A stretch of 64,000 bases of DNA, from NCBI GenBank assembly GCA_017470905.1, contig JAFUXL010000007.1, forward strand, positions 234,177-298,176, in the 5' to 3' direction. Position numbers and translations under genes: made by a program. Positions 1,662 through 64,000 of this stretch are shown piece by piece. The DNA comes from Ruminococcus sp. (GTDB lineage Bacteria; Bacillota; Clostridia; Oscillospirales; Ruminococcaceae). Under the pieces are notes generated by a model. The model was not told the DNA's origin. It did not search any database and saw only the letters and a list, made by a program, of their open reading frames with translations. How positions within the stretch are numbered: the stretch's first letter is position 1; each line of letters begins with the position of its first letter.

Positions 1662-1756
1662 AGAGGAAATTTGCGCCCTTGACATGGGAGTGAATGAAGT
1701 GTAACGGAATGAACGAAATGTCAAGATTAAAAAGGCGCAAATTGACGATTTTAAAT
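1662..1756 (+). repeat. R1 hairpin repeat, upstream of FHA gene
   Basis: Outer arms are AATTTGCGCC/GGCGCAAATT and inner arms CTTGACAT/ATGTCAAG. The element ends in GACGATTTTAAAT, immediately followed by GAGG, the Shine-Dalgarno for ATG 1767. An R2 end (ATTATGCATTAA) lies just upstream. Confidence 0.9.
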
Positions 1757-1766
1757 GAGGTTTTTT

Positions 1767-2198
1767 ATGGAAGATATGAATTTAATGCTTTGCGCCGTGT
1801 CTGCGGCGGCACTGGATATATGCGCCCTTGTGCTTATCATAGCATCTTACAGGGAACGAAGCACGGGCAACAAGCAATGGAAGAAAATATCCGCAAATAT
1901 GGAACTTGTCGAGCAGGGCTTTACATATCAGCTCGGCTGTGATGAAATACTCATAGGCAGACACGCAAGCGCAGATATAAGACTGCCCGATATATCCGTA
2001 TCACGCTATCATGCCATGCTGACAGTAACCGACGGGGTATGGACTATCACCGATATAGGCTCGAAATCAGGGGTATACGTCAACGGAACTCTCGTAAAGA
2101 GAAAACGTCTGCACGAGAATGATGTAATAACTCTCGGCAACCGAAAGCTCACCCTTAGAAAGATTACTGACAACAAAAAAAGTAAAAAGCGTAATTAA
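1767..2198 (+). CDS. Membrane-anchored FHA-domain protein
   Basis: A 143-residue protein with one N-terminal membrane helix (about residues 5-27) and a cytoplasmic FHA domain (about 58-135). FHA residues are visible: G64-R65, S79-R80-x-H82 and N106-G107 in DIGSKSGVYVNG. FHA domains bind phosphothreonine peptides, usually products of Ser/Thr kinases. The gene heads an operon with a SEDS protein and a class B PBP, as FHA genes do beside rodA/pbpA in Actinobacteria, which suggests that wall synthesis is coupled to Ser/Thr phosphorylation. I chose ATG 1767 because GAGG at 1757-1760 is correctly spaced. The ATG at 1755 lies inside repeat R1. No kinase gene is in the window. Confidence 0.85.
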   Translation: MEDMNLMLCAVSAAALDICALVLIIASYRERSTGNKQWKKISANMELVEQGFTYQLGCDEILIGRHASADIRLPDISVSRYHAMLTVTDGVWTITDIGSKSGVYVNGTLVKRKRLHENDVITLGNRKLTLRKITDNKKSKKRN

Positions 2199-2318
2199 AT
2201 GCATAATGCATAATTCATAGTTGCTGTTGTCTGCGGCAATACGGAATAATCATAAATAATAATTGCGGTGATAATTTAAATATATTATGGAAGTAAATAT
2301 AATTATGAATTATAAACA
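2199..2318 (+). repeat. R2/R3-type AT-rich element between FHA gene and ftsW
   Basis: The left end (ATGCATAATGCATAATTCATA) directly follows the FHA stop codon, and the right end (AATTATGAATTATAAAC) abuts R1. The interior is AT-rich with a short GCGGCAAT remnant. Confidence 0.7.
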
Positions 2319-2414
2319 AGAGGAAATTTGCGCCCTTGTGCCGGGAGTGAACGAAGCGTAGCGAAGTGAACGAAGGCACAAGATTTAAAAAGGCGCAAAT
2401 TGACGATTTTAAAT
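2319..2414 (+). repeat. R1 hairpin repeat, upstream of ftsW-like gene
   Basis: Outer arms AATTTGCGCC/GGCGCAAATT; inner arms CTTGTGCC/GGCACAAG. The inner stem differs from the copy at 1662 but is still fully complementary. It is followed at once by AGGAGG and ATG 2427. Confidence 0.9.
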
Positions 2415-2426
2415 AGGAGGATAAAG

Positions 2427-3725
2427 ATGATTAAAAATCCCTTTGCATATCTTTTTTCATGCCTTTTTGTGCTTGCGGCGCATGGTGCTATGCTGATAAA
2501 TATTTTCTACAACGGAAAATATGATGACATAAAGGATTTGGTAATACTTGCCGCCGCCGTCCTCGGTCTGGATATATCGTATTATATAATCATGCTTTTC
2601 TTTAAGCAGTATACATATACGGTTGATTTCATGCTTCTGCTAATACTGAATATGAGCGTGATATTCCAGTCCTGTTTCGGAGGAGTAAGCTTTTCAACAA
2701 AGCATTATATCACCTGCATAGCTGCCCTTATAGCCTGCCGTTTCGGGCATATCCTGACATACAATCATAATTGGATTCAGCAGCAGAAAAAATATATCTG
2801 GCTCGGCATAGGTCTGCTCATGATTATTATTTTAACCCTCACGGGCAGCAGAAGTATGTGGATAAATATAGGTTCTTTTTCGTTGCAGCCCTCGGAATTT
2901 ATGAAGCCCCTGCTCGTGCTTGCCTGTGCAACCTCGATTACCGAACAGCAGAACAAGCACAGGGTCTGGAAATTCGACATAGTATGGGAGAATATTATAC
3001 TGTTCGGCATAACGGGAGCTGTATGCCTTTTGCAGTGGTGGTGCAGGGATTTGGGAAGCATTCCCACCTTTGCGGCTATCTATGCGGCTGGATTTTTCCT
3101 GAGAATATGCTACCCCAAGGCAAAATTTTCAAACAAAACGCTTATTATCGCAGGCTCTGTCGTCCTGGCAGCCGCACTCATAGGCATAAAAATCGCCCCC
3201 GAATACGTAAAGGACAGGCTCTTTGTAGATATATGGAGCGATAAGGACGGAAACGGCTATCAGCAGTCGCAGGCTCTCATAGCAATCGCCGACGGCGGCT
3301 GGTTCGGAAAGGGTCCGGGCAATGGCTTTCTGCACAATGTTTTCGCACACGAAAGCGATATAGTTTTCTCCTCGATAAGCGAGGAATGGGGGCTTCTGTA
3401 TGCGATAATGATGACGCTTGTAATACTGCTTATAGCCGCATCTCCGCTGATAAATCCTCCACGCTCTTACTATCACGGAACGATGTGCGCAGGAATATGT
3501 GCGGCATTTACGGTACAGATGGCACTGAATATTTTCGGCTCGTGCAATATGATACCGTTCACGGGAGTAACTATACCGTTTATATCAATGGGCGGAAGCT
3601 CAATGGTGACAAGCGGATTTATGGCCGGTATGCTCGTTGCGGCGCAGTCGCCTGTGTTCAGAAAGCCTAAGCCGAAAAAGAAAAAAACTGAAAATACTCC
3701 CGTCCGCAGGAGGTATGCCGCATGA
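2427..3725 (+). CDS. SEDS-family peptidoglycan glycosyltransferase (FtsW/RodA/SpoVE)
   Basis: A 432-residue polytopic membrane protein. SEDS proteins polymerise lipid II glycan strands and work with a cognate class B PBP. Hallmarks include GSFSLQPSEFMKP in the first half, GGWFGKGPGNG in the large extracellular loop, SEEWGLLYA, and the C-terminal TIPFISMGGSS. The C-terminal tail is rich in Lys and Arg. Its stop overlaps the start of the PBP gene by 4 bases (ATGA), indicating translational coupling. AGGAGG fixes the start at ATG 2427; the upstream in-frame ATG at 2400 is inside R1. Whether it acts in elongation, division or sporulation cannot be decided from sequence. Confidence 0.9.
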   Translation: MIKNPFAYLFSCLFVLAAHGAMLINIFYNGKYDDIKDLVILAAAVLGLDISYYIIMLFFKQYTYTVDFMLLLILNMSVIFQSCFGGVSFSTKHYITCIAALIACRFGHILTYNHNWIQQQKKYIWLGIGLLMIIILTLTGSRSMWINIGSFSLQPSEFMKPLLVLACATSITEQQNKHRVWKFDIVWENIILFGITGAVCLLQWWCRDLGSIPTFAAIYAAGFFLRICYPKAKFSNKTLIIAGSVVLAAALIGIKIAPEYVKDRLFVDIWSDKDGNGYQQSQALIAIADGGWFGKGPGNGFLHNVFAHESDIVFSSISEEWGLLYAIMMTLVILLIAASPLINPPRSYYHGTMCAGICAAFTVQMALNIFGSCNMIPFTGVTIPFISMGGSSMVTSGFMAGMLVAAQSPVFRKPKPKKKKTENTPVRRRYAA

Positions 3726-62144: not shown

Positions 62145-62145
62145 A

Positions 62146-63825
62146 TCAGAAAAGACCGATGATATTGCCGTTATTGTCGCAGTCGATATTCAGGGCGGAG
62201 GGCTTTTTGGGCAGTCCCGGCATAGTCAGTATCTCGCCCGTATAGATTACCACAAATCCTGCACCTGCGGAAACTCTTGCATCACGGACTGTTATATTGA
62301 AATTTTTGGGCTTGCCGAGGAGTGCAGGGTTGTCCGAGAGGGAATACTGAGTTTTTGCAACGCATATGGGGAGATTTCTGAAGCCTATATTTTCAATTTC
62401 CTTTATAGCCTTGTCAGCCTGTGCGGTATAGGAAACTCCGTCCGCACGGTAGATTTCCCTTGCGACCTTTTCGATTTTGTCCTTTATCGAGAGGTCAGTT
62501 GAATAAATCGGGCGGAATTTATCGTTATTATCCTCACAAAGAGCGATGGTATCGCAGACTTTTTCAGCCAAATCAATGCCGCCCTCGCCGCCTTTTGCGA
62601 ATACATCGCACATTGAGACTTCAACGCCCATTTCATTGCAGAAATTTCGTACAAATTCGATTTCTGCATCTGTATCGGTATGGAAACGGTTTATGGCAAC
62701 AACAACAGGTACATGGAATTTGTGCATATTTTCGATATGGGTTTTAAGGTTTTCGCTGCCTTTTTCCAAAGCCCACATATTCTCCTTTGAGAGTTCGTCC
62801 TTTGGTACTCTGCCGTTGTATTTCAATGCTCTTATCGTAGCGACAAGGACTACACAGGCAGGTGAAAGACCGCCGTAACGGCATTTTATGTCAAAGAATT
62901 TTTCTGCGCCGAGGTCAGAGCCGAAGCCTGACTCCGTGATACAGTAATCGCCGAGTTTAAGGGCAAGCTTTGTAGCCCTTATTGAATTGCAGCCGTGGGC
63001 GATATTTGCGAAAGGACCTCCGTGAATGAGTACGGGGTTATTTTCGAGGGTCTGGACGAGATTTGGCTTCAATGCATCCTTGAGCAGAGCAGTCATTGCA
63101 CCGCAGCAGCCTATCTGCTGTGCGAATACGGGCTGACCGTCAAGGTCATAGCCTATGAGGATATTTCCGAGACGTTCCTTCAGGTCTTTCAGGTCGGCGG
63201 CAAGACAAAGTACAGCCATTATTTCCGATGCAACTGTTATATTGAAGCCGTCCTCCCTGGGTATTCCGTTGGGCTTTCCGCCGAGACCGACAACAATATT
63301 TCTCAAAGCACGGTCATTCATATCCATACATCTCTTAAACAATATTCTTCTCTGGTCGATGCGCAGTTCGTTTCCCTGCTGTATATGATTGTCAATCATG
63401 GCGCAAAGGAGATTGTTTGCGGCGGTGATTGCGTGCATATCGCCCGTGAAGTGCAGGTTTATATCCTCCATGGGGACAACCTGTGCATAGCCGCCGCCTG
63501 CCGCACCGCCCTTTATGCCGAATACAGGACCGAGGGAGGGTTCACGGAGTGCAAGAACGGCTTTTTTGCCGATTTTGCCCATAGCTTCGGCAAGACCGAC
63601 ACTCACGGTGGTTTTGCCCTCACCTGCCGGGGTAGGGTTTATGGCGGTAACGAGAATAAGCTTTCCGTCAGGTCTGAAAGCAAGACCCGAATAAAGGCTC
63701 TCCGAGAGTTTAGCCTTATAATGTCCGTAGGGTTCGAGATATTTTTCGTCAATACCGAGCTGCCCGGCAATTTCGGTAATTTTTTTCATTTTAGCGTTAC
63801 GGGCTATTTCTATATCTGATAACAT
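62146..63825 (-). CDS. fhs: Formate-tetrahydrofolate ligase
   Basis: 559 residues. The P-loop [19 protein letters not shown] is present, with [32 protein letters not shown] and [14 protein letters not shown] [18 protein letters not shown]. It ATP-dependently activates formate to 10-formyl-THF, feeding purine synthesis and acetogenic C1 pools. ATG 63825 follows GGAGG by 5 bases. Confidence 0.96.
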
Positions 63826-63835
63826 AAAAACCTCC

Positions 63836-63933
63836 ATTTAAAAATCGTCGAATTTGCACTTTTTGAGCCTTGTGTCTCCGCTCACTTCACTATGTTCCGT
63901 TCACTCTCGACACAAGAGTGCAAATTCTCCTCT
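63836..63933 (-). repeat. R1 hairpin repeat, fhs copy 1 (gene-proximal)
   Basis: Outer arms GAATTTGCACT/AGTGCAAATTC; inner arms CTTGTGTC/GACACAAG. It ends ATTTTTAAAT, then GGAGG of fhs. Confidence 0.9.
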
Positions 63934-63934
63934 G

Positions 63935-64000
63935 ATTTAAAATCGTCGAATTTGCATTTTTTGAGCCTTGTGTCTCCGCTCACTTCACTATGTTCCGTTC
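63935..64000 (-). repeat. R1 hairpin repeat, fhs copy 2 (cut by window edge)
   Basis: Right arm region only: ATTTAAAATCGTCGAATTTG, TGAGCCTTGTGTCTCC. It continues beyond the window. Confidence 0.85.

Follow-up and report, generated by a model that had tools for sequence, protein, structure and literature searches.

R1, a dispersed hairpin repeat set before Shine-Dalgarno sequences in rumen Ruminococcus species and some of their phages, is a candidate mobile element

In a window of 64,000 nucleotides (that is, the whole stretch of DNA analysed here: positions 234,177 to 298,176 of contig JAFUXL010000007.1 in the Ruminococcus sp. assembly GCA_017470905.1), we examined a family of hairpin repeats, named R1, whose copies stand mostly at the 5' edge of the Shine-Dalgarno sequence (SD) of a gene. 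On the whole we think it probable, though well short of settled, that R1, a hairpin of about 95 bp, is mobile in a non-autonomous way that depends on its structure, prefers SD-like targets and is kept there as a leader. R1 occurs in three related rumen bacteria and in some of their viruses; besides the window genome (G000), the bacterial carriers are Ruminococcus sp. RGIG7051 (G025) and Ruminococcus sp. UBA4383, both recognized by a pattern scan of genome contigs.

A covariance model built on 15 of the window copies (those at 42764, 60478, 59725, 6553 and 63935 were omitted) returned 20 matches, all with E < 1e-8, the same number of ~95-bp copies as had been counted in a first-pass annotation of this DNA. 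Nineteen of the 20 make up ten arrays, each leading in sense into a gene, as had also been annotated, and Pfam agreed with the gene names proposed: FHA, FtsW/RodA, BioY, a His-tRNA-synthetase-like protein (hisZ), histidinol dehydrogenase, PRA-PH (hisE), a MetG-type protein, UPRTase, RpiB and FTHFS, a set of mixed function with no common pathway. The twentieth copy has the inner hairpin of the others, as first described, but differs in its G5/C5 outer arms and its position after a stop codon; we assign it to a second class (class B, as opposed to class A). The window copies are as follows.

1662..1756, plus strand: R1 copy, class A, 5' of the SD of an FHA-domain gene (model match, Pfam).
2319..2414, plus strand: R1 copy, class A, 5' of the SD of a ftsW/rodA-type gene (model match, Pfam); the syntenic G025 site has a plain SD.
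6553..6646, plus strand: R1 copy, class B (G5/C5 outer arms), 3' of the stop codon at 6537, not SD-adjacent.
20021..20308, minus strand: tandem array of three copies (20213-20308, 20116-20211, 20021-20114) before bioY; TTGACA/TATAAT-like boxes stop 5 nt upstream of the array.
40716..40906, plus strand: tandem pair before hisZ (model match, Pfam); the G025 ortholog has a solo 3' end only (L128:16286).
42764..42853, plus strand: the first of two degenerate copies in the window (short tip), before hisD; G025 site empty.
49055..49245, plus strand: tandem pair before hisE (PRA-PH) (model match, Pfam).
51643..51832, minus strand: tandem pair before metG (model match, Pfam); G025 site empty.
59628..59916, minus strand: tandem array of three copies between rpiB and upp; G025 site empty (AAAATAAGGAGGTGTTTC).
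60371..60571, minus strand: tandem pair before rpiB, including the second degenerate copy (60478, mismatched stem); an R1 copy also stands at the G025 ortholog.
63837..64000, minus strand: tandem pair before fhs (FTHFS) (model match, Pfam), its second copy (63935-64000) truncated by the window edge.

Each unit consists, in order, of AGAGGA, the outer arm AATTTGCGCC, the inner arm CTTGnnnn, a tip, nnnnCAAG, a one-sided bulge of 7-9 nt, GGCGCAAATT and GACGATTTTAAAT, after which another unit or the SD of the gene itself follows. The sets had been described as all ending alike, but the exact GACGATTTTAAAT is not universal, the metG and rpiB sets ending in TACGATTTTAAAT and the fhs set in GACGATTTTTAAA. 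Allowing up to 2 mismatches, this motif was found 24 times in the window, 19 times inside R1 copies and 5 times outside (23189, 41067, 50387, 51834 and 54077), against 5 on average and at most 12 in 100 shuffles. The anatomy is best illustrated by the best-scoring copy.

59717..59722, minus strand: element-borne AGAGGA, the 5' foot.
59707..59716, minus strand: outer stem, 5' arm AATTTTCGCC.
59699..59706, minus strand: inner stem, 5' arm CTTGTCAT.
59667..59698, minus strand: tip stem of 2-bp steps with GA/GA and GNA/GNA mismatches and a triloop; in composite copies, this is where nested copies sit.
59659..59666, minus strand: inner stem, 3' arm ATGACAAG.
59651..59658, minus strand: one-sided 3' bulge GTTTAAAA.
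59641..59650, minus strand: outer stem, 3' arm GGCGAAAATT.
59628..59640, minus strand: 3' linker GACGATTTTAAAT, then the gene's own AAGGAGG.

Covariation of the stems, proposed at first pass, was upheld against two kinds of null. Across the 15 window copies, 90.8% of cells were paired, double changes occurred at 14 of 24 pairs (14 was reached in 1 of 500 shuffles), double-change cells numbered 58 against 19.9 in shuffles (0/500 as high), and the covariation score of 0.431 lay above the shuffled 0.187 (reached in 0/500) and above every slid version. In a tree-aware test on 214 distinct standard-length cores from the three species (a simplified test of our own, not R-scape, in which the observed changes are placed randomly on the tree), four column pairs had E < 0.05, all four in the helix and one of them in the tip; among the 13 proposed core pairs, 3 were invariant and 6 varied without reaching this threshold. 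The loop, earlier taken for a purine-rich near-mirror, turned out to be a third stem, since its 2-bp steps, split by GA/GA and GNA/GNA, alternate between GT/AC, AC/GT and GC/GC and yet stay paired (98-100% of cells); it is closed by triloops such as GTA, GCA, TTT and similar. Folded singly, four copies were 3.5 to 5.1 standard deviations more stable than shuffles (z -3.5 to -5.1). As judged from these comparisons, the R1 fold is real. At variable pairs, GU cells numbered 39 and AC cells 19 out of 2,140 (expected under independence: 271 and 258), a difference suggesting that it is the gene-sense strand which folds, presumably as RNA; the pattern used for this count fixed GA at two loop positions and the G of the first GNA (leaving the second GNA, present in 207 of the 214 cores, as the only independent evidence among them), and both this count and the tree-aware test omitted copies with a non-standard length or an odd loop. 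A leader peptide read from the invariant TTG was considered: an in-frame stop occurs within 6 codons in 193 of 214 cores, but stops are found in the other frames too (206 and 136 of 214), and no claim is made.

The genome containing the window, a Ruminococcus-group metagenome-assembled genome (MAG) of 2.04 Mb, holds at least 149 copies, 149 matches having been obtained among 150 scored. In 324,045 bases of loci retrieved from it, 161 matches (E<=0.1) form 100 arrays, and 610,275 bases of retrieved G025 loci contain 128 matches in 88 arrays. R1 matched 3 of 125 genomes of the genus, under stricter filters, and, in a separate search, 0 of 24 genomes from other families of the order; nine other single pattern hits were unrelated sequence without a model match, and one R1 copy used as a query found no match in plasmid or cultured-phage collections. 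The three R1-bearing MAGs are 74, 93 and 81% complete (G000, 74%). Several G000 contigs start or end inside R1 arrays (L051:1-216, L080:1-288, L094:1-251, L089:1708-2103 and L059:1656-1876), so that some copies have probably been lost in assembly.

Placement, which is strict, was counted for class A arrays uncut by contig ends, the G000 and G025 copies having been found by a model devoid of the SD. An SD and start codon follow in sense within 40 nt in 68 of 78 arrays of G000 and 62 of 73 of G025 (5 further class A arrays of the latter being nested), compared with 9.8% of intergenic points chosen at random; in the range of most real cases, 8-16 nt, the random figure is 2.4%. The start codon lies mostly 10-15 nt downstream. 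The sense-oriented, SD-adjacent placement noticed in the window recurs at copies elsewhere in G000 and in G025. In UBA4383, 15 of 17 class A arrays are SD-adjacent, a figure biased by retrieval with a GAGGA-ending pattern. Two of the misses in G000 (L079 and L099:1739) were judged by eye to be genes. Many class A arrays are intercistronic: among those with sufficient upstream sequence, a same-strand open reading frame ends no more than 60 nt upstream in 37 of 83 (G000) and 42 of 67 (G025). Exceptional class A arrays at L064 and L098 precede terminator-like hairpins that start with SD-like purines, which hints at sequence targeting, and those at L048, L091 and L103:18286 precede terminator-like hairpins without such a start.

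As a separate observation, 5 of 34 class B copies (L084:1859-1942, L095:1226-1317, L092:2068-2162, L052:6429-6507 and L114:11341-11434) have the start codon 0-1 nt past the hairpin and a G-run or AAGGAGG on its other side, and their fold would place the SD about 12 nt from the start codon; a like arrangement, with the start codon after the hairpin and the SD on the opposite side, is seen at L218:4962.

The borders of the element had to be redrawn relative to the first-pass annotation: the left AGAGGA is near-constant and persists in nested copies while the SD on the right varies, so AGAGGA belongs to R1 and the SD shows no sign of duplication. Target-site duplication of the SD found no support on the same grounds, the flanks of nested copies differing as well, though no pair of fresh empty and filled sites was available for comparison. 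Further out on the left, 101 first-in-array copies show a flank motif A-W-Y-A (A 70%, C or T 77%, A 70%), 43 of 144 such flanks having been set aside because they already contain TTTAAA-like sequence; no such motif emerges from 394 native SDs, and in nested copies it is host sequence. Neighbours within 60 nt are on the same strand in 101 cases, 75 of these at 95-98 nt, and on opposite strands in 0. Nine nested composites were found in G025, each insert lying in the tip of the host copy and in its orientation: five retain both host halves around a class A insert (L100, L102, L103, L110:10772 and L136), two retain the 5' host half only (L105 and L129), and two have class B inserts (L110:7107 and L134:2776). 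The left junction follows GCA in six, ACA in one and ATA in one, L134 being ambiguous, and the inserts of L103 and L136, in hosts of different class, are 100% identical. Solo 3' ends have variable left borders; the searches for orphan 3' and 5' ends were unequally sensitive, and the asymmetry between them carries no claim. Mosaic copies were also noted, two of which (L117:9770 and L134:2432, minus strand) join a class B 5' arm to a class A 3' arm and end, while a third (L118:17340) fuses a class B 5' end to a solo class A 3' end; arms have thus been exchanged between copies.

Comparison of G000 with G025 bears on how R1 spreads and whether it is retained. The two genomes are syntenic, their aligned pieces of >400 bp being 68-93% identical, and 45% of 3,621 fourfold sites differ (24 genes). 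Copies cluster by species: when each array was represented in a tree by a single class A copy (151 in all, with class B, odd-length copies and all other copies of each array omitted), 26 species-label changes were needed, against 50.5 after shuffling, with a minimum of 41 over 200 shuffles. Values for the nearest dispersed copy were 0.885 (G000) and 0.917 (G025) within species and 0.863 and 0.859 across, and single pairs reached 97.9% (G000, interior copies) and 100% (G025) identity; one 99% identical G000 pair consists of copies at two contig ends, which could represent a single place. Out of 30 syntenic G000 arrays with both flanks on one G025 stretch, 13 are without R1 in G025, where at least one of these sites keeps a solo 3' end. 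Among the 94 of 250 G000 genes with a usable ortholog in the retrieved G025 stretches, 15 of the 25 led by R1 have an R1-led ortholog, against 6 of the remaining 69 (Fisher p 9e-7). Position is common to both species while sequence turns over: either the same SDs are hit repeatedly, helped by the target-like ends of the arrays, or old copies at useful leaders give way to fresh ones.

A scan of viral contigs with a GAGGA-ending pattern, which biases phage placement to SD-like flanks, picked out 8 contigs. One of them, L218, looks chromosomal; of the remaining seven, six carry the motif immediately 5' of the major head protein gene, and the seventh, L219, stops short of that gene and aligns to the L217 leader (L214 and L216 share 7,122 identical bases, so that L225 and L226 count as one phage). 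Ten loci whose head proteins are >=93% identical comprise three with R1 hairpins (L220, with two copies, L222 and L223), four with a solo 3' end (L221 and L224-L226) and three with neither (L227, L228 and L236). In the R1-free L236, AAGGAG comes immediately after the upstream TGA, and in L222 the hairpin is found between TGA and SD. None of 15 more distant head-protein loci matches the R1 model. Three weak model matches (26-28 bits) lie elsewhere in L214, L216 and L219.

The first-pass annotation had left a choice between a 5' leader RNA and a mobile unit targeting SDs. Mobility has gained support from clustering, near-identical dispersed copies, nesting and presence or absence in phages, and the leader role only indirect support from the common occupied genes, the intact folds and the excess of GU over AC. 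Taking species clustering, same-strand tandems, tip nesting and varying presence before one phage capsid gene together, R1 very probably spreads; as occupied genes are common to the two species, it may also be kept, or re-targeted, as an mRNA leader. We propose that R1 propagated within a small group of related rumen Ruminococcus species and also entered their phages. It would settle in one orientation just 5' of a purine-rich SD-like sequence (AAGGAGG), often after A-W-Y-A, and its ends (5' AGAGGA, 3' TTTTAAATA) would mimic this target, so that new copies adjoin old ones in same-strand tandems or sometimes land in another copy's tip; the observed placement would result from sequence targeting combined with selection. 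The fold and its AU-rich linker, which leave the SD at normal spacing, would become the tolerated leader of the downstream cistron, probably used for mRNA stabilisation or as a ribosome standby site, a function suggested by placement. Transposition of the bottom strand beside CCTCCTT was considered but abandoned in view of the excess of GU over AC on the top strand. A bolder version, which we hold only tentatively and rather doubt, is that R1 is a self-spreading mRNA leader addressed to ribosome-binding sites (RBSs), its ends mimicking the SD, which moves without Y1, IS110 or reverse transcriptase and improves expression, and would for this reason be carried by phages as well, in front of their capsid gene.

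Several points weigh against the mobile-leader proposal. Six of the 10 pairs that vary failed to reach significance in the tree-aware test, and the excess of GU over AC could reflect strand-biased mutation plus relatedness. In 16 of 29 class B arrays, no SD and start codon follow. The five complete class A nests miss a few right-side host tip bases, where simple insertion predicts none. R1 pairs at orthologous genes show a mean identity of 77% vs 71% for random pairs, only 2 of 19 being clearly closer; with the other 17 not clearly so, shared position may mean re-targeting and not conserved function. The phages provide no clean empty/full pair, and as their alleles differ in the SD spacer too, recombination could explain the change, gain and loss both fitting. 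Concerted evolution could likewise produce species clustering. As for an enzyme, the search for Y1_Tnp (PF01797) yielded a relic in G000 and nothing in G025 or UBA4383, and neither IS110 (DEDD) nor RVT_1 gave a match in any of the three, the search not extending to further families of transposases or recombinases; at the completeness of these MAGs, chance absence of an enzyme from all three is unlikely yet possible, as repeats are lost in assembly. The relic (L041:1444-2777) is a decayed IS605-type element, in which a truncated Y1_Tnp frame is followed by TnpB-like frames (by eye), and its locus contains no R1. A Y1 transposase as driver was rejected on this basis (only the truncated TnpA of L041, none in G025 or UBA4383), as were reverse transcription, prompted by the solo 3' ends (no RVT_1), and an IS110-type guide RNA (no DEDD gene).

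Three other explanations were weighed. R1 could be chiefly a functional cis-acting leader RNA, serving protein or ribosome binding or a nuclease block, kept by selection in front of particular genes and homogenised by gene conversion and tandem duplication, not by transposition. Such a leader would account for the genes occupied in both species (15/25 vs 6/69), the intact folds, the GU excess, the sense placement and the phage copies preceding the major head protein, and gene conversion could also yield species clustering; however, the ten array-led genes of the window share no pathway, 122 of 125 genomes of the genus have no match, 13 of 30 syntenic arrays are without R1 in the sister species, and copies nested in tips or standing before terminator-like hairpins have no leader role, which together make this explanation unlikely, if still the most serious of the three. 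The hairpin with its bulge and 5' purine tag recalls repeats of the REP type, moved in trans by an unseen, RAYT-like Y1 enzyme that works on the top strand in its folded form, GAGG being the guide and AWYA the 5' target; that A-W-Y-A flanks 101 first-in-array copies, is host-derived in nests and was unseen at 394 native SDs would fit. We nonetheless consider such a movement quite improbable, as the searches of G025 and UBA4383 turned up no Y1 gene, the G000 relic has no R1 in its locus, and neither strict SD adjacency nor the loss of host bases in nests would be expected. Movement by recombination only, phage or transformation DNA exchanging leader/RBS modules at short homologies (AATTTGACG, TTTTAAATA, AAGGAGG), agrees with phage alleles that differ in RBS spacer as well as in R1, with the variable left borders of solo 3' ends and with the mosaic class A/B copies, but the like placement at many unlinked genes and the identical inserts in tips of different hosts are hard to explain in this way, and we regard it as very improbable.

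Other features accompany R1 in the window. A second family of repeats, built of AT-rich 14-nt units (ATTATGAATTATGC), in several cases lies directly 5' of R1 arrays, and a third repeat of about 66-88 nt (TATAAATGAGCATTTTTAAATAATGCACA...) has four copies, with a motif, ACAATTTTAAATTTGCTCA, accompanying it at 23182-23223 and 54070-54111.

16927-17049, 32897-32997, 35154-35244, 46673-46712 and others: 14-nt AT-rich repeat units.
10413-10500, 16741-16828, 23050-23137 and 53984-54049: the four copies of the third repeat.
28286-28477, minus strand: two adjacent tRNA-Ser genes (GCT, TGA).

Against the Rfam covariance models, at the gathering threshold, the window yielded two tRNAs only and no riboswitch or T-box match, and four of the five REP features tested were lacking in R1, in line with the first-pass opinion that it belongs to none of the known riboswitch, T-box or REP families. 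Repetitive extragenic palindromes (REPs) are described in the passages cited here as high-copy extragenic hairpins with compensatory changes and a short 5' tag, which are thought to be mobile as folded single strands, the stem of one group being broken by unpaired bases (PMC3116915, PMC8266576, PMC3733652, PMC6006769). R1 resembles the REP/REPIN repeats, whose transposases are RAYTs (TnpA-REP), in that it is a folded, mobile-looking, high-copy imperfect palindrome with an unpaired stem region and compensatory changes. In contrast, REPs carry the tag GTAG, where R1 has a near-constant AGAGGA (GAGG) and no GTAG; their unit is about 20-60 nt, against ~95 nt, mostly 95-98 nt, in R1; their cognate Y1 gene is flanked by repeats, whereas none was found in two R1 genomes and G000 has a relic with no R1 in its locus (these MAGs being incomplete); they form opposite-orientation doublets (BIME/REPIN), unlike the 101 same-strand and 0 opposite neighbours of R1; and they are reported mostly downstream of coding regions, whereas R1 stands before SDs (PMC3733652). 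The same source, in the part cited, describes CGTC-tagged REPs as short single palindromic hairpins without a known dedicated transposase, compared with which R1 has three stacked stems and is SD-adjacent (PMC3733652). The pneumococcal BOX, RUP and SPRITE elements are presented in the cited passage as interspersed folded repeats, likely mobile and expected to affect co-transcribed genes, with tandem inner units in BOX and an association, strongest for SPRITE, with regions downstream of coding sequences; R1 instead stands just 5' of SDs and duplicates as a whole unit (PMC3049150). Comparison with classical miniature inverted-repeat transposable elements revealed no target-site duplication at R1 and outer arms that are complementary yet variable between copies, DDE families not having been searched. 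Intercistronic or 5'-terminal mRNA-stabilising hairpins and ribosome standby sites likewise combine a strong hairpin with an unpaired AU-rich stretch before the SD, but these are single-gene features, whereas R1 is a dispersed repeat family. We file R1 among the interspersed mobile hairpins, apart from REPs by tag, size, orientation, enzyme and placement; in the open-licence PMC literature (titles and abstract openings) no description of an SD-adjacent mobile hairpin in Ruminococcus was found.

In the passages cited, REPs and the pneumococcal repeats are reported mainly at the distal ends of genes, where they insert at little cost (PMC3733652, PMC3049150). Class A copies of R1, found almost only at the edge of the RBS in sense and in a genome holding 149 or more copies of the repeat, amount to a natural experiment on how a repeat may pass through the most sensitive region of the message and leave it working. 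They make testable whether a repeated leader sets mRNA stability or translation, what reads the SD as a DNA target and whether a mobile RNA module can be common to phage and host.

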